A DNA stretch of 64,000 nucleotides. It comes from Antarcticibacterium sp. 1MA-6-2 (GTDB taxonomy: Bacteria > Bacteroidota > Bacteroidia > Flavobacteriales > Flavobacteriaceae). The stretch lies in contig NZ_CP091036.1 of assembly GCF_021535135.1 (NCBI RefSeq), positions 1,488,001 through 1,552,000 of the forward strand, in the 5' to 3' direction. Below the pieces are notes generated by a model. The model did not search any database. It was not told the DNA's origin and saw nothing but the letters and a program-made list of their open reading frames with translations. Positions 19,437-63,179 of the stretch are shown piece by piece (position 1 is the stretch's first letter; each line of letters starts with the position of its first letter). The translations under genes and the position numbers were made by a program.

Positions 19437-20340
19437 GTGAAAGCAATACGGGTATTTCTGAAAATTCTTCTGGCACTTATATTTTTTCCGCCACTAATTT
19501 ACCTCGTATTCGTCTTAATTGGAGCCGCTATTCCAGTTAACTCAGCTCCTGACACTTCCGAACATTTTGCAACTATTTATCTCGTCTCCAATGGAATGCA
19601 CACAGACATCGTCCTGCTTAAAAAATGAGGTGAAAGATTGGACGAAAATTGTCAAACCCCACCATAGTCTATCTCCTCCTGAAGAAGTAAAATATGTGAG
19701 TTTTGGATGGGGAGATCTGGAGTTTTACCGCAATACACCGGAATGGAAGGATCTGAAATTAAAAACAGCATTTAAATCTCTATTTCTGAAAACACCTGCT
19801 GCTATACATGTGAGATTCCTTACTACTTACTCCTTTGGAGGGGATTCCAGAGCCATTGCCGTAACCCAATCGCAGTATGAAATGTTATCCTCTTACATCA
19901 AAAACAGTTTTAAGTTTGCTACCTCCGGAAATACGCAACCTGTGAAGGATCTTCACTATACCCGTGACGACGTATTTTACCATGCTCGTGGTTCACTCAA
20001 CCTCTTCAAAACCTGCAATACCTGGGTCAACAGCGGACTTAAAAATTCAGATCTTAAGGCCTCCCTTTGGACTCCATTTGTAGAAGGGATTTTTCTCAGA
20101 TATCCCAAAGATAGAAATGAAGAGCCTGCTGCAGCTGTGAACTTGAATTTAATTGGATTAAAAATGAAAAAAATACCAGGATCAGCTGTAGACCAGATCA
20201 TTCTTTCAATTTTAGGTTTATTTTATAATCCACTCCGGGACGACTCTGCGTTATTCTTTTTAACTTCAAGAGATAATAAAATCCAGTTGTTATGTTTTCT
20301 TCCGGAAAAAAGAACAAAGATATTTCTGAACATTACCTGA
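19437..20340 (+). CDS. TIGR02117/DUF2459-like protein, disrupted
   Basis: The N-terminus has a membrane segment (residues 8-30), then IYLVSNGMHTDIVL. After a frame change at 19616-19620 the protein continues NEVKDWTKI...VSFGWGDLEFYRNTPEW and LFKTCNTWVNSGL, with a histidine and a cysteine that the family shares. Family members read VLPVKNE at the break, which predicts CTGCCGGTAAAA. The sequence shows GCTTAAAA, a loss of two bases at a predicted GCCGGT. A one-base A-run slip is an alternative. The C-terminal 60 residues are longer than usual and overlap the next gene by 49 bases. Function is unknown. Confidence 0.65.
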
Positions 20341-21590
20341 AATTTGAAACAAATTCCGATTTAGATCCGCTGCTGGAAAGCATTGGAGGCTCAAGATATG
20401 TACTCTTAGGAGAAGCCAGCCATGGTACCCACGAATACTACACCTGGACGGCACAAATCTCAAAAAGGTTAATTCAGGAAAAAGGATTTTCATTTATTGC
20501 GGTTGAAGGAGACTGGCCCGATTGCTATAAGATCAATAAATGGATCAAAGAACCTGATGATCGGCGCGAGATCAAAGATGTATTGAGCGAATTTCGCCGC
20601 TGGCCTACCTGGATGTGGGCGAATTGGGAAATTGCTGCTTTTGCTACCTGGCTCAGAAATTATAATTCCCAAATAGCCGAGAAGGAAAAAATAGGCTTTT
20701 ATGGCCTCGACGTTTACAGCTTATGGGAATCAATAGATCTAATTGTAGATTATCTTGAAAAGGAAGATCCTGAAACAGCCAAACACGCTAGGGATGCTTA
20801 TATGTGTTTTGAACCATATAAAGAAGGAGATTCTTACTCCTCTGTTTTTTCTTCTTCTAAACCGGGATGTAAAGAGGAAGTCATTAAACTGTTAAAGGAA
20901 GTAAGGCAAAACGCTCACAAATATAACAGCGAAAAAGAAGCAGATCTTAATGCTGAAATTAACAGCCTTGTACTGGCAAATGCCGAAAAATATTATAAAG
21001 CAATGGCAGGCTTTGGAGAAGATTCCTGGAATGTTCGTGACAGGCACATGGTCGAAACCCTTAATACCCTCACTAAATATCACGGCCCACAATCTAAAGT
21101 AATTGTTTGGGAACACAATACTCACATAGGTGACGCCAGGGCAACTGATATGGCCGATGATGGATTGGTAAATGTGGGGCAATTGGTAAGAGAACAGCAC
21201 GGGAGCCAGGGAGTTTATTTAGCGGGATTTGGTTCCTATTCAGGATCTGTTATTGCGGGGACTCATTGGGGAGCGCCCATGAAAAATATGAGAGTACCTC
21301 AGGGAACAAGAGGCAGTATAGAGGAAAAATTACATAACGAGCAACAAGGCAATAAGCTATTAATTTTGAAAGATAACAAGGACCTGGGGGAGGCTTTTGA
21401 AAGGAGGATGGGTCATAGAGCTATTGGTGTTGTTTATCATCCTGAAAGAGAATGGGGAAATTATGTACCTACCAAACTTGCAGAAAGATATGATGCATTC
21501 CTATTCATTGATGAAACAAAGGCACTGCATCCTCTAAGAATAACACCTGATGGTAATCTTACACCGGAAACCTTTCCCTTTGGGATATAA
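20292..21590 (+). CDS. erythromycin esterase family protein
   Basis: A 432-residue protein of the EreA/succinoglycan-esterase-like family. The catalytic histidine-glutamate signatures are seen in LGEASHGTHEYY (about residue 40), FIAVEGDWPDCYKINKWI, and VWEHNTHIGDARA with its HxxH-like histidines. The family fold binds a hydrolytic water through these residues. In this genomic setting, among core genes, a role in macrolide resistance is not implied. The start overlaps the preceding gene; a later internal start is possible, but the SRYVLLGEASHG motif fixes the frame. Confidence 0.85.
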   Translation: MFSSGKKNKDISEHYLKFETNSDLDPLLESIGGSRYVLLGEASHGTHEYYTWTAQISKRLIQEKGFSFIAVEGDWPDCYKINKWIKEPDDRREIKDVLSEFRRWPTWMWANWEIAAFATWLRNYNSQIAEKEKIGFYGLDVYSLWESIDLIVDYLEKEDPETAKHARDAYMCFEPYKEGDSYSSVFSSSKPGCKEEVIKLLKEVRQNAHKYNSEKEADLNAEINSLVLANAEKYYKAMAGFGEDSWNVRDRHMVETLNTLTKYHGPQSKVIVWEHNTHIGDARATDMADDGLVNVGQLVREQHGSQGVYLAGFGSYSGSVIAGTHWGAPMKNMRVPQGTRGSIEEKLHNEQQGNKLLILKDNKDLGEAFERRMGHRAIGVVYHPEREWGNYVPTKLAERYDAFLFIDETKALHPLRITPDGNLTPETFPFGI

Positions 21591-21608
21591 AAACTAAAAA
21601 ATTTACCT

Positions 21609-22669
21609 ATGACAACTATAGATGAAATACACCAGGCACTGGGAGAAGACGCTTCATATTACCTTGAACACGAGAGCAGCAAAATTTCGAAAGAACGCTT
21701 AACTATTCCCGGCCCGCACACTATTGATAATTTTCTGGACAGCGACAGGAATCCGCAGGTGATAAAAAGTCTTGCTTCCCTATACAATCACGGCAATCTT
21801 GGTGGATCAGGATATCTGAATATTCTTCCCATAGATCAGGGAATAGAACATTCTGCAGCGTTTTCATTTTATAAGAATCAGGACTATTTTGATCCTGAAA
21901 ATATTATAAAGCTCGGCATAGAAGCAGGATGTAATGGAGTCGCTACTACTTTTGGAGCACTGGCACTACATGCAAGACGTTATGCTCATAAAATTCCTTT
22001 CGTAGTCAAGATAAATCATAACGAATTGCTCACATATCCAAACAAGTACGATCAAATCCCTTTTGGTAGTGTTAAGGAAGCCTGGGATATGGGAGCAACA
22101 GCAATAGGCGCAACAATATACTTTGGAAGTGAAGAAAGCACCCGGCAAATTCAGGAAGTAGCTGCGGCTTTTGAAGAAGCTCATCAATTGGGAATGGCTA
22201 CAATTCTCTGGTGTTACACGCGTAATAGCGGATTTAAAACTGAAGAAGGAGATTTTCACACTGCAGCCGATCTTACCGGGCAGGCAAATCATATAGGAGT
22301 AACTATTAAAGCCGATATCATTAAGCAAAAATTACCCGATACTAATTTCGGATTTAAGAAGATAGACTTTGCAAAATACGATGAGCAGATGTATGAAAAC
22401 CTCACTACAGATCATCCTATAGATTTGTGCCGTTACCAGGTAGCTAATTGCTATATGGGAAAAATAGGCCTCATCAATTCCGGTGGAGGTTCTAAAGGAG
22501 AATCTGATATTAAAGAAGCTGTTAGAACAGCAGTTATTAATAAACGTGCTTAAGTGGTAGCGGTCTCATAATGGGGCGAAAAGCATTCCAGCGACCACTA
22601 AAAGAAGGTATAGAGATCTTACAAAGGGTTCAGCAGGTGTACCTGGAACCGGAGATCACGATTGCTTAA
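21609..22669 (+). CDS. class I fructose-bisphosphate aldolase (DhnA type), disrupted near C-terminus
   Basis: 352 residues when repaired. This is the Schiff-base aldolase of glycolysis/gluconeogenesis. Motifs include [23 protein letters not shown] with the probable Schiff-base lysine region, and [14 protein letters not shown] as phosphate loop. The frame breaks at 22548-22555, where GCTTAAGT creates a TAA stop after NKRA. Replacing it by GCCGGT restores [21 protein letters not shown] and the normal terminus EITIA, with the stop at 22667-22669. This stop overlaps the convergent rimO stop codon by three bases. Confidence 0.9.
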
Positions 22670-24021
22670 ACGGTTCTAACCTGGATATGCTTTCGAGCTA
22701 GCTTTTCAACGTTGACATTTACTGGTGTTCCATAAAGATCAAAATCAGCAGCATCAGTAATTTTGACTTCGTAAAAATCTCCCGTTTTAAGATAAGTTGA
22801 AGTAGCGTCAATAAGTACTTCATTATCAACATCGGGTGAATCAAATTCTGTGCGCCCAATGTAGTAATTCCCTTCTTTTCGGTCAATTACAACCTTATAC
22901 GATTTCCCGATTTTTTGCTGATTCAACTCCCAGGAAATTTGAGACTGTATTTCCATGATCTCATTCGCACGAGCCTGTTTTACTTCCTGCGGAACGTTAT
23001 CCTCCAGGTTGTAAGCGTGTGTATTTTCTTCATGAGAATAGGTGAAACAGCCTAATCTTTCGAAACGCATCTCCTTCACCCACTCCTTCAGTTCCTGAAA
23101 ATGCTCTTCAGTCTCTCCGGGATATCCTACAATAAGGGTAGTTCTAATAGTCATTTCCGGAACAAACCTTCTGAAGTCTTTCAGCAGATTTGTTGTTTTA
23201 TTGTGAGTAGTCCCGCGGCGCATTGACTTCAAAAGATCATCAGAAATATGCTGCAGCGGAATATCTATATAGTTACAAACTTTTGGCTCCCGCTTCATTA
23301 CCTCCAGCACATCCATTGGAAAACCTGTAGGGAAAGCATAATGCAATCTTATCCACTCAATTCCTTCCACCTTCACCAGGTTTTCAAGTAATTCTGCCAG
23401 ATTCCTCTTTTTATAAAGATCAAGACCATAATAAGTAAGATCCTGGGCAATAAGAATTAGTTCCTTTACTCCGTTTGCTGCCAGTTTTTTTGCTTCTGTT
23501 ACAAGATCCTCAATAGGTGTAGACCTGTGTTTCCCGCGCATTAAAGGAATGGCACAAAATGAACAGGGTCTGTCACAACCTTCAGCAATTTTTAAATAAG
23601 CATAATTTTGAGGGGTAGTTGTAAGTCTCTCCCCTACCAGCTCATGCTTGTAATCGGCTTCAAGGGCCTTAAGCAATGCAGGTAGCTCTGTAGTTCCAAA
23701 ATATTGATCAACATCAGGAATTTCCTTCAGCAGGTCCGGTTTATATCTCTCACTCAGGCAACTCTAAGTGACAAAAACTTTATCGACCTCTCCCTCCTGT
23801 TTTTTCTGAACATATTCAAGAATAGTATTTACAGATTCCTCCTTTGCATTATCAATAAAGCCACAGGTGTTAATCACCACAACATTCCCCTCCTGCTCGT
23901 GTACCACATCCTTCTTGTTAGCGCGTAACTGCCCCATCAAAACTTCACTGTCATACACATTCTTGCTGCAACCAAGAGTGACTACGTTGATCCTGTTCTT
24001 CTTTATTGATTTTGTTCTCAT
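22666..24021 (-). CDS. rimO: ribosomal protein S12 methylthiotransferase RimO, disrupted
   Basis: 450 residues when repaired. This radical-SAM enzyme methylthiolates an aspartate of ribosomal protein S12. The N-terminal cluster-binding cysteines are in [13 protein letters not shown] and INTCGF, the radical-SAM CxxxCxxC is CDRPCSFC, and a C-terminal TRAM domain follows (about residues 375-440). At 23761-23769 (minus strand ACTTAGAGT) an in-frame TAG interrupts VFVT|CLSERY. Restoring ACCGGT gives the conserved VFVTGCLSERY. This is the only disruption here with a net gain of three bases, so the frame itself is kept. Confidence 0.92.
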
Positions 24022-24256: not shown

Positions 24257-25392
24257 ATGAAAATTAGTTACAGCCTTTGCTTTTTGCTCCTTCTCTTTTA
24301 TAGTTACAGCTTTTCTCAACAACGAGTGCGGGAATTAGGTATTGAAATAGGAGTTATTCCTACAGGGAAATTAAATGGCATTACCGATGTTTCCGGCGTT
24401 AAAGTTGGTCATGTTACTCTTTCTAAAGGGGACTCTGTAAGAACAGGCGTTACTGCTATTCTTCCTCACAGCGGAAAAATTTTTCAGCAGAAAGTGCCTG
24501 CCGCTGTTTATGTTGGAAATGGCTTCGGAAAATTAGCCGGAAGCACTCAGGTAGCTGAACTCGGAAACCTGGAAACGCTTAGTGATTCTCACAAACACGC
24601 TGAATGTTCCTACTGCAATGGATGCGGTGATTCAGTATACCTTGAATCAGGAAGGAAATGAAGAGATTCGTTCTGTCAATGCTGTGGTAGGAGAAACCAA
24701 CGACGGATATTTAAATGACATTCGCAGTCAGCTAAGTACAGATTTCAGATGTTATTTCTGCAATAGAAAATGCAACGGAAAGTAACACTAATGAAGGCAA
24801 TGTAGGTGCGGGCACTGGTACTATTGTCTTTGGATATAAAGGCGGAATTGGCACTTCTTCACGTGTGCTTCCACCCGGCCTGGGCGGATATACTGTTGGG
24901 GTGCTGGTACAAACAAATTTTGGCGGAGTATTACAAGTTGCCGGAGTACTAGTTGGAAAGGAACTGGGAAATTTCAGTTTTAGTGATAAACTTCTGAATA
25001 ATGTAGACGGTTCCTGTATGATCGTTGTTGCTACTGATGCTCCATTGGACAGCCGAAACCTCGAACGCCTGGCAAAGAGAGCTTTTTTAGGAGTAGCAAA
25101 AACGGGAGGAATTGTTTCAAACGGTAGCGGAGATTACGTAATAGCTTTTTCTACTGCGGAAGGGGTAAGAATTCCTTATCAAACTGAAAATAACCTGCTT
25201 TCACAGGAGATTGTTCCCAATGATCTCATGTCCCCCGTATTTATGGCTGCTATTGAAGCCACTGAAGAAGCAATCCTCAACTCCTTATTTATGGCAGAAA
25301 CAATGACAGGATATAAAAACAGAACTATTGAAGCTCTTCCAAAAAAAGAGGTGATGGAAATTCTGAAAAAATATAATGCGATTCCGGATTAA
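24257..25392 (+). CDS. P1-family (DmpA-like) peptidase, twice disrupted
   Basis: 377 residues when repaired. This is an N-terminal-nucleophile aminopeptidase with signal peptide (residues 1-21). Conserved segments: GKLNGITDVSGVKVGHVTL, VGNGFGKLAGSTQV, NVGAGTGT and the self-cleavage region GGIGTSSRVLP. Two frame breaks occur: at 24577-24583 GCTTAGT stands where family sequence ETPxVLTNT requires ACG CCG GT, and at 24731-24737 GCTAAGT where Q-P-V is predicted. Both repair to GCCGGT. The start at 24257 (MKISYS) is chosen over 24173 because it gives the signal peptide. Confidence 0.88.
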
Positions 25393-26635: not shown

Positions 26636-28274
26636 CTATTCGTTGTAATCTTCGGGTGAAATTCTCCTGTTGCTGACTTTCTCGTAATTAAAGGCCCAGG
26701 AGTAAAGGTCTTCTTCACTAAAAGGCTTCCCAATAATGGTAAGACCTTTAGGAGCATTATTTTCACCATAACCCATTGGCACTGTAATAGCGGGATATTG
26801 CGCTACAGCGGCAAAACCTAAGCATGGTAATTATTGATTGATAAAATACCTTTAAGATTGTGCTTTTTCATAGGCACATCAAAAAAACGTCTTCCGTTTC
26901 GTTTCAAGGTATCTTTAATAGCAGCAAACTCCTTATCAGTTGATGAGTCTTTTACTATACCTTCAAATAAGGCCTGTCCGTAAGGGGAACGATTTAAAGA
27001 GTCGGTAGAATTATATGCTATTACATCCTCTACACCTCGAAATTCACCGCTGCCGCCATATTTTTCAAAATATTCAGGTAAATCCTTCTTCATATCAAGA
27101 TTGAGAAGCCTAAGAAAATTTGGAAGCTCCACCTTTTCAGGTTCGAATTCAATTACTTCTGCACCTGCCTCCCTAAGATCATTAACAGCAGCTATATATA
27201 AGGAATCTTCCATCAGTGGCTTTAAAGCGCCAAATCTAACTCCCTCAAGATTCTTTTTCGATATGGAGGAATAATAATCCTCGTTGACTCTTCCACTTTT
27301 TGCTGAAGCAGGATCCTGCGGATCCTTTCCTGTCATTGCAGAAAAAAGAATTGCATTATCTATGACGTTTTTGGTAATAGGCCCCGGCGTATCCAGCGTA
27401 CTCGAAATTGGTACTATTCCTCCCCGGCTTAAAACTCCAATTGTAGGCTTTAATCCAACAAGAGAATTTTGACTCGCAGGTGATAAAATAGACCCTGAAG
27501 TTTCTGATCCTACCGCAACCGGAGCAAAATTAGCTGCAATAGCCACAGCACTCCCACTACTGGAGCCCCCGGTATCGAGAATTTTTCTTCCGTAAGGGTT
27601 AAGAGTTTGTCCCCCAACTGCCGAGTAACCACTTGGACATTCTCCACAAAAGAAATATGCCCATTCACTCAAATTTGCCTTACCAAGAATTATAGCTCCG
27701 TTTTCCTTCAGACGCTCTACGATGTATGCATCGTCCGTATTATTTTTCTGCAAAGCTACCGCACCTGCAGTAGTAGGCATATTTTCAGTATTTATATTAT
27801 CCTTCAGAAGAACCGGAATACCAAAAATAGGATGGTTCCTTTGTCCTGCCTGAAAAGCAGAATCTTTCTCCTTTGCTTCTTTAATAACATCGGGATTAAG
27901 TGCAATAACTGAATTTAGACTACGAGCGTTATTTCTGTCGAATTTCTTTATCCTATGCAAATAAAAAAGCACCAGTTCCTCATAAGTGAAGTCACCTAGG
28001 TTTTAATCGAAGTTTGCAATTCGGGAATGGTTTTGTCTAATATTAAAGGACGAAGCATATCATATTTACTGTTAGACAAACTTGCCATTTCCTCCTCAAG
28101 TGGAGCCCATAGAGAATCTTTGACAATATATTTTGAGTCAAGAACCTTATAGTCTCTTTCCCCGGTAGCTGCAATAGTATCATTAGCAGCAGTTTCAACT
28201 TTGTTCTCTTCCGAATCCTTTTTACAGCCAGTAAAAAAGAATACTAATATTAATAGAAAATAAAATCTTTTCAT
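26636..28274 (-). CDS. amidase-signature hydrolase, lipoprotein, twice disrupted
   Basis: 544 residues when repaired. A lipobox (FTGC) at the N-terminus suggests surface or periplasmic location. The Ser-cisSer-Lys triad can be read: Lys in VLLKDNINT, Ser in GGSSSGSAVA and the nucleophile Ser in GSETSGSI. The gene is broken at 27994-28001 (ACCTAGGT, giving a TAG after SIKT) and at 26817-26824 (minus strand GCTTAGGT, giving a TAG after NNYHA). Restoring ACCGGT and GCCGGT gives SIKTGDFTYEEL and NNYHAGFAAVAQYPAITVPMG, both normal for the family. Start at 28274 (MKRFYF) is preferred. Confidence 0.9.
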
Positions 28275-28322: not shown

Positions 28323-29280
28323 TTACTTTTTGAAGAATGAATCTACAAATTCAAATTTATTGAATACCTGCAGATCTTCAACCCCTTCTCCCACGCCAAT
28401 ATACTTTACGGGAATCTTAAATTGATCACTAATACCTATTACCACTCCTCCTTTTGCAGTACCATCAAGCTTTGTTACAGCCAAAGAAGTAACCTCAGTC
28501 GCAGCTGTAAATTGCTTGGCCTGTTCAAAAGCATTTTGGCTAGTAGAACCGTCCAGAACAAGAAGAACTTCGTGAGGAGCACCTGGAATTACTTTTTGCA
28601 TTACACGCTTCACCTTTGTTAACTCGTTCATTAGGTTAACTTTATTGTGAAGCCTTCCTGCCGTATCTATAATAACCACATCTGAATTTTGTTTAACTGC
28701 GCTTTGTACGGCATCAAAAGCAACAGAAGCCGGATCGCTTCCCATTTGCTGTTTCACGATTGGCACCTGCGTCCTGTCTGCCCAAATTTGTAGCTGATCA
28801 ATGGCCGCAGCTCTAAACGTGTCCGCTGCACCCAATAATACCTTTCGGCCGTCTTGTTTGAACTGATGTGCAAGTTTACCAATGGTGGTAGTTTTGCCCA
28901 CTCCATTTACTCCCACTACCATGATCACATATGGTTTCATGTCTTCAGGAAAGTCAAATCCATCTCCGTTCCCTGTATCAGTTTCAGATAGTAAACCTAA
29001 GAATTTCCTCCCGCAGGATTCCATTAAGCTCATCTGTTCCAAAATACTTATCCCTTGCTACTCTCTCCTCGATTCGGTTAATAATCTTAATAGTAGTAGC
29101 CACACCCACGTCACTGCTTATTAAAACTCCCTCCAGATCATCCAGGACTTCATCATCTACCCGGGTTTTACCTGCAACGGCTTTACTCATCTTGGATAAG
29201 AACGATGATTTGGATTTCTCTAAACCTTTGTCCAGGGTCTCCTTTTTCTCCCTGGTAAACATCTTCTTAAATAAACTCAT
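28323..29280 (-). CDS. ftsY: signal recognition particle receptor FtsY, disrupted
   Basis: 318 residues when repaired. This is the SRP receptor GTPase, which targets membrane proteins at the inner membrane. The N domain (ERVARDKYFGTDELNGILREEI) is followed by the G domain: P-loop VGVNGVGKTTTIGKL, DTAGR, TKLDGTAKGG and the C-terminal IGVGEGVEDLQVF. The frame breaks at 28995-29001 (minus strand CTTAGGT) between EEI and GLLSETD. Restoring GCCGGT gives EEIAGLLSETD. FtsY is essential in characterised bacteria, so a true break here is very unlikely. Confidence 0.92.
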
Positions 29281-30171: not shown

Positions 30172-31431
30172 CTATGATTTTTTCTTTATAAGTTCCTGGA
30201 AAATTAATTGAAAGGCTTTATCCACTGCCTTTTTTACTACCTGCTCCCGGGTATTACCAAACACAAATTTTTTAGAAAAGACAGCATTTGGAGTGGCGAT
30301 ACCAATAAAAACTGTTCCAACTTCGGCATCACTTTCTCCTTTTTTAGGACTTGGCATTTCCTGTGGTAGACAGGGCGTAATCACTCTTAAAAAGTTTTTT
30401 AGCGTTTTTAGCCATACTCTCAGCAACCTCTGCACTCACAACGCTGTGTTTCTCTATAAGCTCTGTGGGAACTCCAAGGATTTCTTCTTTTGTATGGGTG
30501 GCATACGTTACAATACCTCCCTTAAAACAGGTAGAAGCACCGGGATTTGTGGTGAATTGTGCAGCAAGATGGCCTCCCGTGCAACTTTCAGCTGAAGAAA
30601 GGAACTTTTTCTTTGACATCAGGAGCTTACTTATTGTCACTGTAATGTCATCGTCTTCCTGAACATTGTCTGACATTATATCCTCAATTAATGGATATAA
30701 TTTCGTCATTTGCTCCTCTATGGAGGTTTTTAGCCTGTCTTCATCTTCCCCTTTTCCCGAGAGTCTGAGGCGGACGCTTCCCAAATCTGGCAGGTAGGCA
30801 AGCTTAATACCAGCGGGAAGATTGTTTTCCCACTCCTCTATTCTCTGCGCCACTGCACTTTCCCCCAATCCAAAAGTTCTTATGGTTTTATGGTATATGA
30901 ATGGGCGGTTAAATTCCTTTTTAAGCTTTGGGATCACTTCCCGCTCCATGAGCATTTTCATCTCAAACGGAACACCGGGAAGAGCAATAAAGACATTCTC
31001 GTCCTTTTGCATCCAAAGGCCGGGTGCCGTACCATATTTGTTTGGCAAAACAGTAGCTTTTGAAGGCACCATCGCCTGCTCCCGGTTAAGATCGGAAATG
31101 GAGGTGTTTTTAATCTTTTTAAAAAGCTCCTCCACATTTTTGAGCACCTCTTCATTCTTTACAAGGGTATCATCAAAAAATTCGGAAAGGGTGTACTTGG
31201 TTACGTCGTCTTTAGTAGGGCCAAGTCCACCTAGGTTATAATTACAATTTTGGCCCTGGAAGCTGCTTCTTTTAACGCCTTTTTAATATGATCTTTATCG
31301 TCAGAAATTGAGACAATTTGATTTACCGAGATGCCAATTTTATCCAGTTCCCGGGCAATATCTGTAGAGTTAGTATCTGCTATTTGCCCTATGAGAATCT
31401 CGTCCCCAATTGTGATTACTTCTGCAATCAT
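30172..31431 (-). CDS. cinA: CinA-family protein (competence/damage-inducible), twice disrupted
   Basis: 418 residues when repaired. An N-terminal molybdopterin-binding-like (COG1058) domain ([24 protein letters not shown]) and a C-terminal nicotinamide-nucleotide amidase (PncC) domain ([38 protein letters not shown]) are both present. The gene breaks at 31229-31236 (ACCTAGGT) within the invariant [14 protein letters not shown], and at 30349-30355 (minus strand GCCAAGT) within STTGNAGPKKGESD. Restoring ACCGGT and GCCGGT recovers both motifs exactly. The start overlaps the Hpt stop codon by one base (TAATG). Confidence 0.92.
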
Positions 31432-31772: not shown

Positions 31773-32388
31773 CTATTTTACATTTATTGAAAAAATCTGT
31801 TCATTTTCTATGAAGCTAGGTTAACCTGTCATTTATTTCCACCTTACCAACTCCTTTTGGAGTCCCTGTAAAAATTATATCTCCAATTTTTAGGGTGAAA
31901 AATTGAGAAACATAAGAAATTATTTCATCTATATTATACAGCATTTCTGCAGTATTCCCCTGCTGCACCCGCTCCTCATTCTTGCGCAAGCTAAAGTTAA
32001 TATTATTTAAATTGCTTAAGGAATTTTTGTCTATCCATTTTTCACCAACAACGGCAGAGCCGTCAAAACCTTTTGCTTTTTCCCAGGGCAAACCTTTTTC
32101 TTTTAATTTTTGCTGAAGGTCCCTTGCCGTAAAATCTATTCCCAGTCCTATTTCATTGTAATACTTATGTGCAAATTTTTCCTGAATATACTTACCCACT
32201 TTATTTATTCGCACAAGTACTTCAACTTCATAATGAACATCCTTAGAAAAATCGGGAATAAAGAAAGGCTGCTTTTTTAGTAAAATAGCTGTGTCGGGCT
32301 TTAGAAAAATTACCGGGTCTGTTGGCTTTTCATTATTTAATTCTGAAATATGCTCAGAATAATTTCTTCCTATACAAATTATTTTCAT
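31773..32388 (-). CDS. FAH-family hydrolase, disrupted near C-terminus
   Basis: 204 residues when repaired, of the fumarylacetoacetate hydrolase superfamily (acylpyruvase-like). Conserved parts include IICIGRNYSEHISEL, the metal-binding HYEVEVLVRI, GLGIDFTARDLQ and IIFTGTPKGVGKV. The frame breaks at 31815-31821 (minus strand ACCTAGC, stop after NDRLT). Restoring ACCGGC gives NDRLTGFIENEQIFSINVK, typical of the family end. The repaired stop at 31773-31775 directly abuts the Hpt start codon. Confidence 0.88.
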
Positions 32389-42338: not shown

Positions 42339-43647
42339 CTAATTATGAATCTTATAATTATCTATTGTCACTTTGGCTCCTAAATCGTGCATAAGATTAT
42401 AAAGGCCAAAGAACGTCCTGTTTATATATAAGAAGTGTTTACTTCCCCTGTTCCCATTCAGCTTTCGAAGTTCCTGATCTTTGCTGTACTTTTCACCTAA
42501 AGCTGTAATCCCGTTCCAAAAAGAAGCATCAGCAAAATCAAATTTTTCTGAGTGAAAAGGTTTGGTAAACAGACTGAGCATTTCGTGAAACATTGTGGTG
42601 AAAAACTCTATCTCTTCTTCGCTGTCATCTTTCCTAAGAATCTCAAGCTCAAATAACTTTTGTCTGAAAAATTCAGGATCGTCTATGCTTTTCTGGCTGG
42701 CCAATTCAAAATAAGGAACATAAAAATCTTCCGGAACCTCTTTAATACAACCAAAATCAATAACTATGAGGTTATCATCCTCATCTATAAGAAAATTTCC
42801 GGGATGAGGATCTGCATGCACAGTTTTTAGCCGATGGATTTGATACATATAAAAATCCCAAAGCGCCTGACCAATTTTATTGGCTTTTAACTGGTCCTGA
42901 TTAATTTTTGCAAATTCACTTATGTGCTTAGCCTTCCATCCAGTCCATAGTTATAATGCGTTCACTGGACAACTCTTCATAATAGCGGGGAAACTTAAGA
43001 TTTGGCAAATGTGCACAGGCTTTAGAAATATACTGACTCTGCTTTACCTCTAAAATATAATTTGTCTCCTCCAGTAGCTTCCCTTCTACTTCTTTAAAAT
43101 ATTTTTCTGAATCTTTTCCCTGTAAATTGAACATTCTGATGGCGATGGGTTTAACCATCGCCAGATCAGAACTAATACTATCTGCAACACCTGGATATTG
43201 GATTTTCACAGCAAGTTTCTTCCCATCTTTAGTAGCACGATGAACCTGACCTATACTGGCCGCATTCACCGATTCGGTTGCAAACGTATCAAACAATTCA
43301 TCGGGGTATTTACCATTATATTTCCTGAACGTTTTTCTAACAAGTGGCGCAGACAAGGGGAGTACACTAAACTGCGCAAGTGAGAATTTCTTTACATAAG
43401 CAGTTGGTAAAATGCTCTTTTCCATGGAAAGCATTTGTGCCACTTTTAAAGCACTTCCTTTCAGGCTTTTTAAGCCATCATATATATCTGTCGCGTTACT
43501 CTCATCGAGTTCCTCCCTTGAAAGGTTCTTGTCAAAAGCTTTTTTACTATAATACTTTATATAATTTCCTCCTACTTTCACCCCCGTTTGAACCATTTTA
43601 CTGGTTCTTCCAAGCTTTCCTGTAGGTATTTTATCTATTGTTTTCAT
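42339..43647 (-). CDS. ABC1/AarF (UbiB-like) atypical kinase, disrupted
   Basis: 435 residues when repaired. Kinase-like features are readable: GLKSLKGSALKVAQMLSMEKS (the KxGQ-like motif), AASIGQVHRA, the lysine in LAVKIQYPGV, the catalytic DPHPGNFLID and DFG in VIDFGCIKE. At 42926-42932 (minus strand GCTAAGC) the frame breaks between DWMEG and HISEF. Restoring GCCGGC gives DWMEGRHISEF, matching the conserved MEG(K/R)H motif. UbiB relatives act in quinone or membrane lipid homeostasis. The TetR-like gene upstream is in the same direction, 72 bases away. Confidence 0.87.
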
Positions 43648-44617: not shown

Positions 44618-46504
44618 ATGGCAACTAGTAACATCAACGTATCTGTAGAGAACATCTTTCCATTAATCAAGAAATTCCTCTACAGCGATCACGAAATCTT
44701 TTTACGGGAATTAATATCTAATGCGACAGATGCAACCCTCAAAATGAAACATCTCACCTCTATTGGAGAGACAGATGTGGAATATGGCAATCCTAAAATT
44801 GAAGTGAAGATTGACAAAGAGAAAAAGACGCTTCACGTGATTGACCAGGGAATTGGAATGACAAAGGAGGAAGTAGAGAAATACATTAATGAGGTAGCTT
44901 TTTCCGGCGCTGAAGAATTTTTAGAAAAGTATAAAGATTCTGCCAAAGACAGTGGTATCATTGGCCATTTTGGTCTGGGATTCTATTCGGCATTTATGGT
45001 AGCCAATAAAGTTGAGATCATTACAAAATCATACAAAGATGAACCTAGCGGCTCATTGGATTTGCGAGGGAACCACCCAGTTTACTCTTGAAGAAGCCGA
45101 TAAGAAAGAGCGTGGTACAGAAGTTATTCTTCACATTAACGAGGAGGACAAAGAGTTCTTGAAAGAAAGCAGGATAAGAGAACTGTTGGTGAAGTATAAC
45201 AAATTTATGCCAATCCCAATTAAGTTTGGAACTAAAGAGGAAACTTTACCTCTTCCTGAGGACGCTCCTGAAGATGCAAAGCCCGAAAAGAAAACTGTTG
45301 ATAACATTATAAATAATCCTAACCCTGCGTGGACTAAACAACCTACAGATCTTGAGGATAAAGATTATAAAGAGTTTTACCGTGAACTGTATCCTATGCA
45401 GTTCGAGGAACCGCTTTTCCATATCCATTTAAATGTTGACTATCCATTTAACCTTACAGGGATATTATATTTCCCAAAGATGGGACAGGATATGAATATC
45501 CAAAAAGATAAAATTCAACTTTATCAAAATCAGGTTTTCGTAACAGACAATGTTGAAGGGATCGTACCGGAATTCCTGACAATGTTACGTGGGGTAATCG
45601 ATTCCCCGGACATTCCTCTTAACGTTTCCCGTTCATACTTACAGGCAGATGGTGCAGTTAAAAAGATTTCCAGCTATATCACCAGAAAAGTAGCTGATAA
45701 ACTGAAATCTTTGTTCAACAACAACCGTGAAGACTTTGAGAAGAAGTGGAACGACATTAAAATTGTCATTGAATATGGAATGTTAAGTGAGGATAAGTTT
45801 TTTGAAAAAGCTGATAAATTTGCCTTATACCCTACTGTTGATAATAAATACTACACTTTTGAAGAATTAGAAGAAAAGATCAAAGAAAACCAGACAGACA
45901 AAGATGGAAATATGGTGGTCCTTTATGCTTCAAACAAAGATCAACAGCACAGTTATATTGAAGCAGCAAAGGACAAAGGTTATGAAGTTCTTTTAATGGA
46001 TTCTCCAATTGTGTCACATCTGCTTCAAAAGCTGGAAGGTTCTAAAGAAAAACTTTCGTTCGTACGTGTAGACAGTGATCACGTAAATAATCTTATTAAG
46101 AAAGATGATCAGGAGATCTCTAAACTTTCCGACGAAGAAAAGGAAAAACTAAAAGCAGATTTTGAAAAAGTTGTTCCGAAGGAAAACTACAGTATTCAGC
46201 TTGAGGCTATGGACAGCAATGCGGCTCCATTAATTATCACCCAACCGGAGTTCATGAGAAGAATGAAAGAAATGCAGCAAACCTAGGTGGAGGTATGTTT
46301 GGAATGGGTAATATGCCAGAGATGTACAACCTGGTAGTAAATACAAACCATCCTTTAGTTTCAGAAATATTAAACATCAAGACTGAAAAAAAACAGGAAA
46401 GGTTGATTAAACAATCTTTAGATCTTGCTCGTTTATCTCAAAACCTGCTGAAAGGAGAAGAATTGACAGCCTTTATTAAGAGAAGTTTTGAAATGGTAAA
46501 ATAA
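44618..46504 (+). CDS. htpG: molecular chaperone HtpG (Hsp90), twice disrupted
   Basis: 627 residues when repaired, normal for Bacteroidota. The ATPase domain contains RELISNATDA, VIDQGIGMTKEE and GHFGLGFYSAFMVA. The middle domain has PLNVSRSYLQ. The first break is at 45043-45049 (ACCTAGC), inside KDEP|AAHW. The second is at 46281-46288 (ACCTAGGT), inside MQQT|GGMFGMG. Restoring ACCGGC and ACCGGT recovers EPAAHWICEG and QQTGGGMFGMGNMPEMY. A strong terminator follows. The disruption would truncate the chaperone within its N-terminal domain if real. Confidence 0.95.
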
Positions 46505-47484: not shown

Positions 47485-49687
47485 TTATACAGAAAGTACT
47501 TGTGAAAAGATGTTCTTATAAATCACCTGGTAGAAGACAGAAGTATCATACGGCTTAACAATAATATCGTTCATTCCTGCCTCCAGAATTTCTTCTCTAA
47601 TTTCCTCAATTTCTACTGCAGTTAGAGCGACTACTGGTACGCGGGTATTAAAGTCCCAAATTTGCCTTGTTGCTTCCAGTCCCGATATTTCCGGCATATT
47701 CACATCCATAAGAATAAGGTCGTAGAAATTAGTTTTTACTTTTGTAATAGCGTCATATCCATTATCACTAATGTCACACTGGAAACCTTTTTGTTCCAAA
47801 ATACGCCTTGTTACTACCTGGTTGATCCTGTTATCATCTACTATTAAAATTGTCTTTCCCTCGGCAGAATCGGTATAGTTTGAAGAATTTTTAAGAGCAA
47901 AGCCGCCTTCTACTGGTAGAGCCGCTTTACGGTCTTTTTCAAATTCTATTTCAAAACTAAAAACCGAGCCTTCATCCTCTGCACTTTCGAGTTTAATTTC
48001 CGAATTAAATAATACGAGAAGTTTTTTAACAATAGGTAGGCCCAAGCCCGTCCCCTGGTAATTATAATTTGCTGATTTCAACTGGGAAAACTCTTCAAAA
48101 ATTATCTGCTGTTTACTCTCAGGAATTCCTAAACCATCATCTTTTACTTCAAAATTGATCCTGCAGGTGGTGGAAGTTTTTTCCAAGAGAGATGAAGAAA
48201 TCCATATATTTCCCCTTTATGTGAATTTCATAGCATTTCCTACGAGGTTCATCAAAATTTGTGATAATCTTACAGGATCTCCTATGAGGTAAGGGTTTAT
48301 TGCAGGATCTATTTGTAGATGTATTTCATTTTTATTCTGAAGTCGTGTAAATTCAAAAGACTTCACAATGCTTCTCATTAAATCTCCCAGGTGGAACGGC
48401 AAATTTTCTAATTTTACCAGATTGGATTCCATCTTATTCATCTGCAAAACATCATTTATGAGAGCAAGTAAATAATCTGCTGAAAATTTTAAAGATTTTA
48501 GATCGTTTTCATGTTTTACGAGGCTTTTATCTTCAAGCAAAATAGAAGTAAGACCTATAACGCCATATAAAGGAGTACGTAATTCGTGGCTTACAGTAGA
48601 AAAAAACTTTGTTTTTAGGACTGAAAGTCTTTCTGCCTCTTCCTTTGCTGCCAGTAATTCTTTATTCTTTTCGCTAAGTTCATAAATTAGTTTTCTGCGG
48701 GAAAGACTTATTTTAACCAGCGCAAGGAGAATAATTAGCAGCACAATTGAGGAAAGTACCATAATGAACATTTTTTCACTGGAACGTTCAATTATTTCAT
48801 CCTTTAGCAACTGCTCATTCTTTGCTATTGCCAGATTCTTTTGATATTCGCTTACATCAAATTTAACATTTGCAGCTTCAATTTGCCGCATTCTTTCCTG
48901 CTCAAAGATCTGGTCTTTAAAGTCATTAAACTTTTGGAGAGCGAGAAAAGCATTTTCAAAATTTCCTTCAGAATATAATAGTTTTGCATATTCCTCATAA
49001 ACATGAGAGGCCTGTAAAATAAGGGAATCCTCTTCCACCATTCTTACAGCATTTTCAAAATAAGGTCTTGCTTTATCTGGTTTATTAATTCCAAGATAAT
49101 ATCTGCTTAGTTAAATTGTTGAGTTGAGATTCGATGTAAAAATCATTTCTGCCTTCATACATTTCCCAGGAGCGCTTTAAATAAGGCCAGGCTTTTGCAT
49201 ATTGTTTATTATCAATATAAGTCCAGGCGATATTTACAGTTGGAGTAAAAATATTCTCTTTGTTATCCATCCTGGTGGCAAGATTAATTACCAGGTTGTA
49301 ATAATCTATACCTTTTTGAGTAGTCTTTTTATCTTCTGAATAAATATTCCCAAGGTTATTGTAAGCTCCCAGAATAAGAGTATCATTCCCTGATTTTTGA
49401 GCATATTCAAGAGCCTGCTCATAGTGCCTTTTCGCTCTTAAAGTATCATTGAGATCATTGTAACTTGAGCCAAGAACTTTGTGAGCGTGATAATGGAAGT
49501 AATTATCATCAAATTTTTTTGCTTCATCCAGCAGCTGCATTGCAGCTTCTATAGCATCTTTATACTCGTAATTAATTAAACTTTCTTCAGAAGTTTTTTG
49601 AAGAGATATCAGGGCAGATCTGTCCTGCGCAAAATGTAGCGTAGGAAAAAGCAATAAACAAAATAAGAAATAGTAGTTTTGTTTCAA
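47485..49687 (-). CDS. hybrid sensor histidine kinase with TPR repeats, disrupted
   Basis: About 733 residues when repaired. A signal peptide (residues 1-20) precedes TPR-like repeats (about 30-300). One membrane helix (MVLSSIVLLIILLALVKI) follows, then HisKA with H-box SHELRTPLYGVIG, a catalytic ATPase domain (NLVGNAMKFT, DDGLGIP, GTGLGLPIVKKL) and a receiver (LIVDDNRINQVV, phospho-Asp in LILMDVNMPE, KPYD). Break 1 at 49105-49111 (minus strand ACTAAGC) is repaired by ACCGGC. Break 2 is a plain in-frame TAA at 48217-48219, after NAMKFT, and is not at an RCCGGY site. It is possibly a nonsense substitution of a Glu or Lys codon. Confidence 0.87.
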
Positions 49688-51775: not shown

Positions 51776-52640
51776 ATGGCCTCACCAGAAAAAACAATCA
51801 CTCCATCCAATGGCTATTTTATGCTTTTCGTAATATTTCTTCTGTTCGTAGGAGGTGTTGCTTAGTTTTATTATGTTTAAGAATGCCTGGTTTTTCCTGC
51901 TTATTGTTCTCTCCCTCTTTTTGAGTATTGGTTTAATCCTTGTAAACCCAAATGAGTCCAGGGTTCTACTCCTGTTTGGAGAGTACAAAGGGACAGTGAA
52001 AAACAACGGGTTGTTTTGGGTAAATCCATTATACACCAAAAATAAAATTTCTCTAAGGGCGAGGAATTTTGATAGTGAAAGATTAAAAGTAAATGACAAA
52101 TTGGGAAATCCTATTATGATAAGCACTATTCTGGTGTGGCGGGTGCTTGATACTTTTAAAGCTTCTTTTGATGTAGATAATTTTGAAAATTTTGTGGTAG
52201 TACAAACTGATGCTGCTGTAAGAAAACTTGCCAGTTTATATCCTTACGATAACTTTGCAGACGAAGGCCTGGATGAAGATATTACCCTGCGATCGAGCGT
52301 GAACGAAGTGAGTTTTGCTTTGGAAAAAGAAATTACAGAAAGACTCGATATTGCGGGAATTGAAGTGCTGGAGGCACGAATAGGATATTTGGCTTATGCA
52401 AATGAAATTGCAAGTGCAATGCTTAAGAGGCAACAAGCTACTGCCATTGTTGCTGCCCGGCATAAGATAGTTGAGGGCGCAGTGAGTATGGTTGAAATGG
52501 CTCTGGAAGAATTGAGCAGGAAGGAAATTGTTTCCCTGGACGAGGAGCGGCGTGCCGCTATGGTAAGTAACCTAATGGTGGTGTTGTGCAGTGATAAAGA
52601 TGCTTCTCCAATTGTAAATGCAGGAACTTTACACCACTAA
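51776..52640 (+). CDS. SPFH-domain membrane protein, disrupted
   Basis: 287 residues when repaired. Two N-terminal membrane helices precede a long SPFH/PHB domain (VNPNESRVLLLFGEYKGTVKNNG, NKISLRARNFDSERLKVNDKLG, QTDAAVRKLASLYPYDNF, LDIAGIEVLEARIGYLAYA). It is a stomatin/flotillin-like protein of the cell membrane. The break is at 51860-51866 (GCTTAGT), giving a TAG directly after FVGGVA; restoring GCCGGT continues with GFIMF. It is the first of a compact + strand cluster (SPFH, membrane protein, hydrolase, Arc-like, HAD). Confidence 0.85.
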
Positions 52641-52641
52641 T

Positions 52642-53140
52642 ATGAGAGTATTTAAAGAGAAGCAACGATTTAACCAGTGGTGGCTTTATGCAATTTTTGC
52701 ATTGACTTTTGCTTAGTTGGCTTCTTTTACTCTTTAATAAATTACAAAGGGATAGAAACGACGAACCTTTACTCATACACTTAATCTCTGGTTTTGTTTT
52801 AATTTTTGCCACTTTTTTCATCTTTTCCCTCAGGCTGGAAACGAGAATAGATTCCAGGGGTGTTACTGCAAGATTCAATCCTTTTAAATTTTTTACAAAA
52901 CATTATTACTGGAAAGACATCGATAACATTTTTGTTAGGAAATATTCTCCCATAGCTGAATATGGTGGATGGGGAGTGAGAGGCCTGGGAAAAGCAAAGG
53001 CTTACAATATCAAAGGGAACAATGGCATCCAAATTGTTACCAAAAACAAAAAAAGTTTCCTTATAGGTACTCAACAACCGGAAGTAGCAAGAAGAATAAT
53101 AAACTACTACCGGGATAGACAATTGGATCAAAATTCTTGA
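52642..53140 (+). CDS. small membrane protein of the SPFH cluster, disrupted
   Basis: 165 residues when repaired. It opens with MRVFKEKQRFNQWWLYAI, followed by two membrane helices and a beta-rich cytoplasmic tail (RLETRIDSRGVTARFNPFKF...KKSFLIGTQQPEVARRIINYY). The break at 52711-52717 (GCTTAGT) produces a TAG after ALTFA. Restoring GCCGGT gives LTFAGWLLLLFNKL. I do not recognise a named family. It starts one base after the SPFH stop codon and so is surely co-transcribed. Confidence 0.8.
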
Positions 53141-53143: not shown

Positions 53144-54077
53144 ATGAAAAAAATTATTTTTTTATTCGTTTTATTATTCAGTATTAGCAGCCTTAGAGCA
53201 CAGGAAGAATTTACAGAACGGGAGCTAAATGTAGATAAATATACTGATGGTACTCTCACTCTTCCTTCAGATTCATCCGATATTCCCCTGGTAATCTTCA
53301 TCCAGGGTTCAGGTCCTACAAATAGGGATGGGAATCAACCAATGATGAAGAATAACGGGATGAAAAAGCTGGCTGAGGAACTGGCTAAAAACGGAATTGC
53401 TTCCTATAGGTTTGATAAGCGAATTTTTAAAATGAACAAATTCGGAATAAAGGAAGAAGATCTAAGATTCGAGGACTTTGTAAACGATGTTCAATCTGTT
53501 GTGAAGCATTTTGCTTCCGAAGAAAAATTCAGCAAAATAATACTTGCTTAGTCATAGTGAAGGAGCTTTAATAGGTACTCTCGCCGCAGGTGAAAATGTA
53601 GATGCACTTATTTCTCTAGCCGGAGCAGGAAGAAGCATTGATAAGATAATTGTAGAACAAATTGCCAAACAATCTCAAGAACTTTCTGAAAATGCCAGAA
53701 CAGCCTTTGATGAAATTAAAGAAAATGGGCAAACCACAAATTACAGTCAATATCTGGAATCTATTTTTCGCCCTTCGGTTCAACCTTATATCGCATCCTG
53801 GATGAAGTACGATCCGGCGGAGGAAATAGCCAAAATAGAAATTCCTGTTCTAATTATAAATGGAACTTTTGACCTGCAGGTAGATGTTACAGATGCTGAA
53901 ATTTTAAAAGAGGCCAAACCAGAAGCAGAACTCTTAATCCTTGAAAATATGAACCATATCTTCAGAAATATTGAAGGTGAAAACCTTGAAAACACAAAAG
54001 CTTATAATGAGCCACAAAGGCCATTGCATCCCGAACTGGTACCTGAATTGGTAGAATTTATAAGATCAATAGAATAG
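53144..54077 (+). CDS. alpha/beta hydrolase, exported, disrupted at the nucleophile elbow
   Basis: 310 residues when repaired. A signal peptide (residues 1-18, SLRA) precedes an alpha/beta hydrolase core. The oxyanion region is GSGPTNRDGNQPMM. The nucleophile elbow GHSEG should follow FSKIILA, but at 53546-53552 GCTTAGT gives a TAG. Restoring GCCGGT gives IILAGHSEGALIGTL with the catalytic serine. The acid is likely in VLIINGTFDLQVD and the histidine in MNHIFRN. It sits between the membrane protein and the Arc-like gene. Confidence 0.88.
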
Positions 54078-55131: not shown

Positions 55132-56401
55132 ATGGAAAACGGCCCTTTGTTCACCAATGATGCCATTGTTTTAGGAATTTTAATGATAGCCCTGGGCTTC
55201 GTTTTTTATACTTCCTCTAAGGAGGAAGGTTTCTGGAAAAAGTTTTATTCGGTAGTACCTGCACTTCTCATGTGCTATCTCATCCCTGCAATTTTCAACT
55301 CCCTGGGGATAATTTCCGATTCTGTTTCTCAGTTGTACTATATTGCCAGTAGATTTTTACTTCCTGCTTCATTGGTGCTCATGACTTTAAGCATTGACTT
55401 AAAGGCCATATTCAATTTGGGACCAAAAGCTCTTATTATGTTCTTTACAGGTACTTTGGGTATTATAATAGGTGGACCTTTGGCTATCCTCATTATTTCT
55501 GTGTTTTCTCCTGAAACTGTGGGTGGTGTAGGTCCTGATGCCGTTTGGAGAGGCCTTTCCACACTTGCTTAAGCAGCTGGATTGGTGGCGGTGCTAACCA
55601 GGCAGCTATGCTTGAAATCTACGAGTACAATCCTAATCTTTATGGAGGAATGGTTCTGGTAGATATAGTCGTTGCCAATTTGTGGATGGCGATAATTCTA
55701 TTCGGAATTGGAAGAAATGAAAAAATAGATAAATGGTTAAAAGCTGACGACTCAGCAATAACAACACTTAAAAATAAAGTAGCCTCCTATGCTGAAAGTG
55801 TTACCCGAAATCCCTCTCTGGCAGATCTTATGATCATGTTGGCAATAGCATTTGGAGCTGTAGGAATAGCCCATTGGGGAGCAGATTGGATTTCGGCTAT
55901 ACTTGTAGAGAATTTTCCTGTTTTTAGTGATAATAAAAGTGCACTTGCTTCTTTCGCCTCCTCTTTTTTCTGGATGATCTCAATTGCCACAGCCATTGGA
56001 ATAATTTTATCCTTCACAAGGTTTAAAACTTACGAAGGTGCTTAGGTGCCAGTAAATTAGGAAGTGTGTTCATTTATATTCTAGTTGCCACAATAGGAAT
56101 GAAGATGGATCTTACTATGGTATTCGACAATCCCGGACTCATTGGCATAGGTCTGGTGTGGATGGCAATTCACGCGGGGCTTTTAATTTTAGTGGCCAAA
56201 TTAATTAAAGCGCCCTACTTTTTTCTTGCCGTTGGAAGCCAGGCAAATGTTGGTGGAGCAGCCAGTGCTCCGGTAGTCGCTGCAGCTTTTCACCCATCTC
56301 TTGCTACAGTAGGAGTGCTGCTTGCAGTGTTTGGATATGTAGTTGGAACATACGGCGCAATTTTGTGCACAATTTTAATGCAATTAGCCGCTGCGGGTTA
56401 G
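55132..56401 (+). CDS. DUF819-family membrane protein, twice disrupted
   Basis: 421 residues when repaired, with about ten transmembrane helices (YjcL-like putative transporter). The breaks are at 55567-55574 (GCTTAAGC, a TAA after LSTLA) and at 56040-56047 (GCTTAGGT, a TAG after YEGA). Restoring GCCGGC and GCCGGT gives LSTLAGSWIGGGANQAAM and YEGAGASKLGSVFIY, which match the family motif GSWIGGxANQ. The late segment GSQANVGGAASAPVVAAAF is also typical. The substrate is unknown. It follows the HAD gene and ends before the DUF4369 lipoprotein. Confidence 0.88.
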
Positions 56402-61540: not shown

Positions 61541-61571
61541 CCTATTTTCTGATACAAAAATTTTATCTTTG
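61541..61571 (+). promoter_or_regulatory. Bacteroidota-type promoter of prfC
   Basis: TATCTTTG at 61564-61571 matches TAnnTTTG exactly, with TATTTTCT at about -33. The prfC start is 18 bases further on at 61589. Confidence 0.6.
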
Positions 61572-61588
61572 CAGCCTTATTTTAGCAC

Positions 61589-63179
61589 ATGAAGTTTACC
61601 GACGAAATTAAACGCAGAAGAACATTTGGTATCATCTCTCACCCTGATGCCGGGAAAACCACTTTAACCGAAAAGCTGTTGCTTTTTGGAGGGGCTATAC
61701 AGGAAGCAGGGGCTGTTAAATCCAACAAGATCAAAAAGGGAGCTACCAGTGACTTTATGGAAATTGAGAGGCAGAGGGGAATTTCTGTAGCGACGTCTGT
61801 TCTTGCATTTGAATACGATGGAACAAAAATTAATATCCTCGACACGCCCGGACACAAGGATTTTGCTGAAGATACTTTTCGCACGCTAACTGCAGTAGAT
61901 AGTGTTATTGTAGTTATTGATGTTGCAAAGGGGGTCGAGGAGCAAACTGAAAAGCTTGTTGAAGTTTGCCGGATGCGAAATATCCCGATGATCGTCTTTA
62001 TAAATAAACTGGACAGGGAAGGAAAGGACGCTTTTGAACTTCTTGATGAAATCGAGCAAAAATTAAACCTAACCGTTACCCCCTTAAGTTTTCCAATTGG
62101 GATGGGATACGACTTCAAGGGAATTTACAATATTTGGGAAAAGAATGTGAATTTGTTCACTAAGTGATCCTAAGAGAGATATTGAAGACACTGTAGAAAT
62201 TTCTGATCTTACTTCGAAAGAATTAGATCAATTAATCGGTGAAAAAGCAGCAAATAATTTACGGGAAGAACTGGATCTTGCACAGGGAGTCTATCCGGAA
62301 TTTGACAAGGAAGCATACCTGGCTGGAAATCTGCAGCCTGTATTTTTCGGTTCTGCATTAAACAATTTTGGAGTTAGAGAATTGTTAGATTGTTTTGTTG
62401 CTATTGCCCCTACCCCTCGTGCAAAAGACAGCGACTCCAGAACTGTAAAACCGGATGAAAATGAATTCACTTGCTTTGTGTTCAAGATCCATGCGAATAT
62501 GGATCCCAAGCACCGTGACCGACTTGCATTTGTGAAAATCGTTTCCGGGAAATTTGAAAGGAACAAGCCATATCTTCATGTACGCCACGGAAAAAATCTG
62601 AAGTTTTCAAGTCCCAATGCTTTTTTTGCTGAAAAGAAAGAAGTTGTGGATACATCTTATCCGGGAGACATTGTGGGCCTTCACGATACCGGAAATTTTA
62701 AAATTGGAGATACTTTGACCGAAGGAGAAGAACTCAACTACAGAGGAATTCCAAGTTTCTCTCCGGAACATTTCCGTTATGTAAATAATGCAGATCCTAT
62801 GAAAGCAAAGCAGCTGGAAAAAGGATTGGACCAGTTAATGGATGAAGGTGTAGCGCAGTTATTTACTCTCGAGTTAAACGGAAGAAAAGTTATTGGTACG
62901 GTAGGAGCTTTACAGTTTGAAGTCATACAGTACAGGCTTGAACACGAATATAGTGCAAAGTGTAGCTATGAAAACTTAAACGTTTATAAAGCAACCTGGG
63001 TAGAACCTGAAAATCCCAAAAGTGAAGAATTTAAAGACTTTAAACGGGTGAAGGCAAAATTTCTGGCAAAAGACAAAAGAGGACAATTAGTATTCCTGGC
63101 AGACTCTCAATTTTCTCTGCAAATGACACAGCAGAAATATCCTTCAATTAAATTTCATTTCGTCTCGGAGTTCAAATAG
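61589..63179 (+). CDS. prfC: peptide chain release factor 3, disrupted
   Basis: 529 residues when repaired, the same length as E. coli RF3. A translational GTPase that recycles RF1/RF2 from the ribosome. G1 [14 protein letters not shown]2/G3 RGISVATSV and DTPGHKDF, G4 NKLDREG and the later EF-Tu-like domain 2 region are present. The frame breaks at 62159-62165 (ACTAAGT), giving a stop a few codons after NLFT. Restoring ACCGGT gives [14 protein letters not shown]. Frame is otherwise open to the normal end HFVSEFK. Confidence 0.94.

Follow-up and report, generated by a model that had tools for sequence, protein, structure and literature searches.

Loss of RCCGGY and stereotyped replacement words in the Antarcticibacterium sp. 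1MA-6-2 assembly point to long-read consensus errors at a modified motif

The DNA analyzed here is a stretch of 64,000 nucleotides (the window) from Antarcticibacterium sp. 1MA-6-2, corresponding to bases 1,488,001–1,552,000 of a genome that is assembled as a single contig of 4,383,004 bases. The palindromic motif RCCGGY is missing from the window and nearly missing from the whole genome, and many of its expected places are taken by stereotyped words one or two bases longer (termed scar words here), which disrupt the reading frames of conserved genes. This near-total loss is present in the file but very probably absent from the cell, and we hold with high confidence that it reflects a systematic consensus error, likely of nanopore origin, at modified RCCGGY sites that are intact in the DNA of the cell. 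A distortion of long-read base calling by a modification of RCCGGY had been proposed from the letters of the window (the original prediction), and this proposal is supported as far as sequence reaches.

Loss of RCCGGY in the Assembly

The window contains no RCCGGY, as the original prediction had found by hand, whereas shuffled sequences contain 17.0 on average (standard deviation 4.7) and a Markov model predicts 16.5 (Poisson P of a zero count, 7e-8). Other contexts of CCGG are frequent, with 52 YCCGGY and 56 RCCGGR (both close to the hand estimates of about fifty) and 71 YCCGGR, and RCCGGY is the strongest outlier among the palindromic six-base classes scanned in the window. CTAG (33 vs. 102 expected) and CATG (73 vs. 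152 expected) are likewise rare in this stretch.

Intact sites are not abundant elsewhere in the genome either. The total is 62 (one GCCGGC, 42 ACCGGT, and 19 GCCGGT/ACCGGC), against approximately 3,340–3,650 predicted from three same-genus genomes by the ratio between RCCGGY and its sister classes; about 2% of sites are thus left by the ratios of the relatives and about 3% by the Markov expectation of the genome itself. Fifteen same-genus genomes contain 81–739 GCCGGC each. The ratio of GCCGGC to its reversed control in 1MA-6-2, 1:199, is the lowest among 397 family genomes in a table read by eye, in which the next lowest noticed was 1:6.

Site-by-site comparison was made between 450 kb of the genome (1,300,001–1,750,000, which covers the window) and 400 kb of syntenic sequence from a same-genus genome, G003. 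RCCGGY occurs 401 times in the latter and six times in the former, while the three sister classes are similar in number (485, 458, and 490 in G003; 386, 385, and 456 in 1MA-6-2). None of the 246 aligned RCCGGY sites of G003 is still RCCGGY in 1MA-6-2, compared with 121 of 784 sister-class sites (42/280, 47/244, and 32/260; P = 6e-16 vs. RCCGGY). Net insertions or deletions within the motif were found at 40 of the 246 RCCGGY sites and at 52 of the 784 sister sites. Shortly beyond the end of the window, genome positions ~1,552,858–1,566,207 (13.4 kb) share 86% identity with G003, compared with ~66–80% for most of the aligned neighbors.

Replacement Words and Frameshifts

Among 42 frame-shifting pairs of 1MA-6-2 and G003 sequences, many have a stereotyped 1MA-6-2 word in the place of RCCGGY. 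These words comprise seven-base forms (RCTAAGY, RCTTAGY, RCCTAGY, and RCTAGGY) and eight-base forms (RCCTAGGY, RCTTAGGY, RCCTAAGY, and RCTTAAGY), all of which retain the outer R-C and G-Y around a central TA and are 1–2 nt longer than RCCGGY. Excess of k-mers over a Markov model was also tried for finding such words and was rejected, since its top words were in excess in the relative too; aligned relatives were used instead. Genome-wide, RCYTARGY occurs 749 times against 660 for its control, whereas eight other genomes have 222–444, each below its own control. In coding DNA, ten of the eleven RCCTAGGY words lie at a frameshift.

Frameshifts in the 450 kb were identified by frameshift-aware protein-to-DNA alignment, with G003 proteins and then pooled over three same-genus genomes. 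With the G003 proteins, 91 of 250 orthologues contained a total of 131 well-supported shifts; the same test in relatives gave 14 shifts in 11 of 222 (G011) and eight in six of 198 (G005). Pooling yielded 151 distinct shift sites, 118 of which are supported by at least two relatives. Of these sites, 84 have a scar word no more than 12 nt away, compared with 299 of 20,000 random coding positions (1.5%), and its presence depends on the type of shift: 57/83 for +1, 26/36 for +2, 1/25 for −1, and 0/7 for −2, that is, 83 of 119 insertion-type but only one of 32 deletion-type shifts. The same words emerged when 6-mers near the shifts were counted without supervision (CTAAGC, 40 vs. 1.08 expected; ACCTAG, 20 vs. 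0.41). In addition, RCCGGY lies within 10 nt in a relative at 36 of 83 scarred insertions, seven of 36 unscarred insertions, and two of 31 unscarred deletions, where the background is 1.5% per relative residue for RCCGGY and 3.2% for YCCGGY/RCCGGR.

An even spread of frameshifts over non-RCCGGY sequence is thus seen only in part, as the remaining 67 of 151 have no scar word. The assembly seems to contain a second class of errors, unrelated to RCCGGY and partly located at homopolymers: 11 of the 25 −1 shifts are beside a homopolymer and lack a scar word, while 20.6% of random positions are beside one. Homopolymer-linked −1 shifts, together with the single contig, suggest a long-read assembly.

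The surviving RCCGGY sites are mostly ACCGGT, and in the 55 of 62 viewed, A or T stands directly outside in 98 of 110 oriented flanks. Such a bias would be expected if the effect on the signal depends on context; incomplete methylation could produce the same bias. Four places with one identical flank, clustered at genome positions 2,401,079–2,403,505, keep an intact RCCGGY. A masking, trimming, or polishing fault that rewrote RCCGGY in the computer, with no modification involved, might also generate a near-complete loss with stereotyped words. However, survival of about 2% of sites in a context-dependent manner and the use of several alternative words would fit a misread signal better than a fixed rule, and the genome encodes a matching methyltransferase (below); we therefore give very little credence to such an accident.

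Breaks within the Window

Alignment to the three same-genus genomes gave 24 shifts in the window. The original prediction had listed 22 breaks, 20 of which have a frameshift within 30 nt, whereas no shift was found at 23761 and 52711. Its claim that every break falls at a former RCCGGY holds for 19 of the 22 insofar as they carry a scar word (17 strict and two looser, at 23761 and 28995); those at 19616, 30349, and 40019 carry none. Four shifts were absent from that list (15503, 17447, 17790, and 25649), and only the one at 17790 has a scar word. The sites are as follows (window coordinates):

17785–17791, scar word RCTTAGY at a +1 frameshift (event at 17790, in 3/3 relatives), not listed originally
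19616–19618, deletion-type frameshift in a TIGR02117-family gene, homopolymer nearby, no scar word
22548–22555, RCTTAAGY at a frameshift, class I fructose-bisphosphate aldolase gene
23764–23768, looser scar word CTAAG, rimO region, no shift event in the alignment
24577–24583, RCTTAGY at a frameshift, peptidase S58 gene
24731–24737, RCTAAGY at a frameshift, same peptidase S58 gene
26816–26823, RCCTAAGY at a frameshift, amidase gene
27994–28001, RCCTAGGY at a frameshift, amidase gene
28997–29001, looser scar word CTAAG at a frameshift, ftsY
30349–30350, frameshift in cinA, no scar word
31229–31236, RCCTAGGY at a frameshift, cinA
31815–31821, RCTAGGY at a frameshift, fumarylacetoacetate hydrolase (FAH) family gene
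40019–40022, frameshift at the end of an outer-membrane receptor gene, no scar word
42926–42932, RCTTAGY at a frameshift, ABC1 kinase-like gene
45043–45049, RCCTAGY at a frameshift, htpG
46281–46288, RCCTAGGY at a frameshift, htpG
49105–49111, RCTTAGY at a frameshift (1/3 relatives), TPR/HisKA kinase gene
51860–51866, RCTTAGY at a frameshift, SPFH/Band 7 gene
52711–52717, RCTTAGY, no shift event in the alignment
53546–53552, RCTTAGY at a frameshift
55567–55574, RCTTAAGY at a frameshift, DUF819 gene
56040–56047, RCTTAGGY at a frameshift, DUF819 gene
62159–62165, RCTAAGY at a frameshift, prfC

The gene names first proposed mostly agree with family matches of the tested pieces (aldolase, rimO, amidase, ftsY, cinA, FAH, htpG, prfC, and TIGR02117, as well as ABC1, SPFH, DUF819, peptidase S58, outer-membrane receptor, and HisKA kinase), several of which score under the curated cut-off, the pieces being fragments. 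The three pieces tested around 52711 and 53546 (52709–53140, 53144–53551, and 53544–54077) have no Pfam family match.

A Candidate Modification Enzyme

Genome-wide methyltransferase searches covered PF00145 and PF01555. The former has one match, a putative C5 methyltransferase of 394 amino acids (aa) at genome positions 3,944,957–3,946,141 on the minus strand, whereas PF01555, the family of N4/N6 enzymes, has no match in the genome and was dropped as a source of the modifier. The locus, entirely on the minus strand, consists of an integrase-like gene (PF00589), a Vsr endonuclease (TIGR00632), a 76-aa frame, the methyltransferase, and a nuclease of 359 aa whose gene overlaps that of the methyltransferase. 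The nuclease matches the PADLOC profile REase_II (PDLC03534, E 6.9e-132) and carries the precomputed label PF27126. A methyltransferase with a possible restriction partner had been expected outside the window, and this locus fits that expectation. The surrounding region (3,930,001–3,962,000) contains, beside the locus, the integrase-like gene and frames that by eye resemble a split recombinase and a transposase; with these neighbors, the locus may sit on a mobile island.

Best among the profile matches of the methyltransferase is MTase_II (PDLC03355, 6.9e-161), followed by DruM of the Druantia type (7.2e-142). In plasmid records, it has 518 matches, and among the best 25 listed, four show 40–53% identity over 73–90% of the query while the other 21 do not exceed 32%. 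A Cfr10I/Bse634I nuclease adjoins the methyltransferase relative in three of these four records, the fourth being unannotated. Identity over the full alignment is 55% for Moraxella osloensis, 54% for Nostoc sp. HK-01, and 39% for Geobacillus CPW16, whose plasmid, pBsrF30, we take from its name to be the BsrFI plasmid. Enzymes of the Cfr10I/Bse634I family cut RCCGGY. The methyltransferase is, judging by sequence, related to enzymes of RCCGGY systems, and the locus is probably an RCCGGY restriction-modification system in which the cutting target of the nuclease is a prediction.

The nuclease itself differs from those of the three plasmid systems, which are annotated as Cfr10I/Bse634I family members, in being a PF27126 protein. 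It matched 2,132 proteins in a protein collection; among plasmid records, 155 have a partial match and none covers 80% of its length. No sequence match was found in the PDB up to E 10 and none by Foldseek with an E value of 0.001 or lower, and a second look gave weak nuclease-fold matches for its C-terminal part. No relationship of this protein to Cfr10I was established by these searches, although one may exist. A bulkier mark, such as a further-modified cytosine or methylation of both cytosines, would account for the insertions and the near-total loss; that the RCCGGY mark is indeed bulkier or denser than plain 5-methylcytosine (m5C) and that the PF27126 nuclease is a new RCCGGY cutter unrelated to Cfr10I is, taken together, an unlikely but not negligible proposition.

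It could also be envisaged that the errors are bound to the motif as proposed but that the modification comes from another enzyme or is not a methyl group. The two-family scope of the searches leaves room for this, as does the strong second match of the methyltransferase to the DruM profile. On the other hand, the only PF00145 match in the genome belongs to a lineage found beside Cfr10I/Bse634I nucleases, and PF01555 has no match, so that another modifier appears improbable.

Artefact or Mutation

Whether the sites were truly mutated away, by restriction avoidance or by hypermutation at methylated cytosines, leaving genes that are really broken, can be judged from the damaged genes and from other owners of the enzyme pair. 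Restriction avoidance is a known evolutionary force, and the genome does encode a restriction-modification locus with Vsr. However, the scarred breaks are insertions of 1–2 nt and not the C-to-T changes of deamination; deamination at m5C is rejected on this ground. The shifted genes, 91 of 250 orthologues, include ftsY, prfC, and htpG. For the last, the best match among 120 listed proteins is 94% identical, and the five best are all full-length (628 aa); no same-species copy was seen among the 120. The best named match of FtsY, in Gillisia limnaea, is 89% identical. Searches with FtsY and with HtpG both assign the genome to Flavobacteriaceae.

Two tRNA genes are also scarred. The tRNA-His gene is 76 nt long, compared with 75 nt in three relatives, and contains a scar word in one strand of its T-stem while the opposite strand is unchanged; as drawn by ARAGORN, the five-position T-stem has two unpaired positions and two that are G-U. 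A search of the genome with the tRNA-His of a relative returned one full-length match, the scarred gene, and twelve partial ones, and no second full-length match was found. A tRNA-Gly gene equals its G003 and G011 copies apart from the same kind of T-stem scar on one strand. Since a scar word on one strand only disrupts the T-stem of the sole full-length tRNA-His match, it is very improbable that the scars are real DNA, and we infer that a cell could hardly survive with this tRNA and so many housekeeping genes broken together.

The nuclease is present in four of 395 genomes of the order, including that of 1MA-6-2, and the proteins of the three other, distant genomes are 76–80% identical; the methyltransferase adjoins it in all three. 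These owners keep 616, 1,600, and 636 GCCGGT/ACCGGC sites and have no excess of scar words. Ownership of the pair by itself therefore does not remove the sites, and true restriction avoidance is rejected. True mutation, which the original prediction had named as the alternative, is accordingly very improbable.

Proposed Mechanism

The preferred explanation, a consensus error at modified sites, might operate as follows. The C5 methyltransferase would place m5C, or another cytosine modification, on both strands of RCCGGY. Native long reads, most likely from nanopore sequencing, would then have been base-called by a model untrained on this mark, both strands would be misread, and the consensus would settle on one of several wrong words. 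About 98% of sites would be lost in this way, many of them written one or two bases longer as RC[C/T]TA[A/G]GY or a seven-base version, and each scar word in a gene would shift its frame, so that healthy genes appear broken. We infer the modified base, the platform, and the clean sequencing that unmodified DNA would give. The assembly shares several features of modification-induced long-read consensus error: the errors are bound to a motif (its loss seen genome-wide, the breaks in 450 kb), the same genome encodes a modifying enzyme whose predicted target matches, and the words, which occur in tRNA-His, tRNA-Gly, ftsY, prfC, and other genes, are implausible in living DNA.

Several observations weigh against this explanation. 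It rests on one assembled sequence of the strain. The comparison with the other owners of the enzyme pair would depend on their platforms and methylation, which may differ. The RCCGGY specificity of the methyltransferase was assigned via relatives at 39–55% identity. In 450 kb, some 340–375 RCCGGY sites are lost, which exceeds the scar-word excess of about 110–125 over the Markov model, so that further, unnamed miscall forms must exist. Such words also occur naturally: those in aligned coding DNA (RCTAGY excluded) are at a shift in 85 of 178 cases. The 67 unscarred shifts include 36 of the insertion type, and of these only the seven mentioned above have RCCGGY near in a relative. YCCGGY or RCCGGR is near 22 of the 83 scarred insertion sites in the relatives, which are diverged. 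Moreover, ARAGORN calls both scarred tRNAs despite their scars. Finally, the Listeria errors described in the available part of PMC10687267 are mismatches, unlike the insertion-type words, the loss of ~98% of sites, and the mass frameshifts seen here.

Relation to Known Systems

Nanopore errors bound to modification have been documented as mismatches or ambiguous bases in the portions available of PMC10687267 and PMC11610573. In Listeria, consensus errors were reported at GCAGC and GCTGG, for which M.BatI, an enzyme of matching target, was discussed, and whole-genome amplification cleared the motif-bound errors (PMC10687267, in the same portions). The present case is similar in that the errors gather on one lineage-specific motif, and it adds a methyltransferase–nuclease–Vsr locus that would fit the motif by homology. 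With regard to the motif itself, m5C was reported at 3,050 of 8,133 RCCGGY sites in strain CPW16 (PMC8112702, available in part), assumed from its designation to be the Geobacillus CPW16 of pBsrF30. It was also reported, in the accessible text of PMC4654547 and PMC8112702, that VchM of Vibrio cholerae and M.AvaIX of Anabaena variabilis perform C5 methylation at RCCGGY. VchM is an orphan that lacks a nuclease, whereas the methyltransferase of 1MA-6-2 overlaps a nuclease gene; the likeness is by described target only. No report of an RCCGGY insertion signature was found in the partly available literature on RCCGGY, on nanopore methylation errors, and on nanopore sequencing with Cfr10I. The kind of artefact is already known; its insertion signature, near-completeness, and nuclease partner are new here.

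Significance

These results imply that bacterial methylation may be read from a finished assembly alone, by a missing motif together with stereotyped words. The signature leads to a motif, to an enzyme, and to an estimate of how much is damaged: 91 of 250 tested genes appear broken, many of which are broken in the file alone. Work on pseudogenes, completeness, tRNA content, and selection in the 1MA-6-2 genome is affected accordingly. Missing palindromes and replacement words could, if counted, reveal similar genomes among public sequences and, with no further sequencing, match methyltransferases to their targets.

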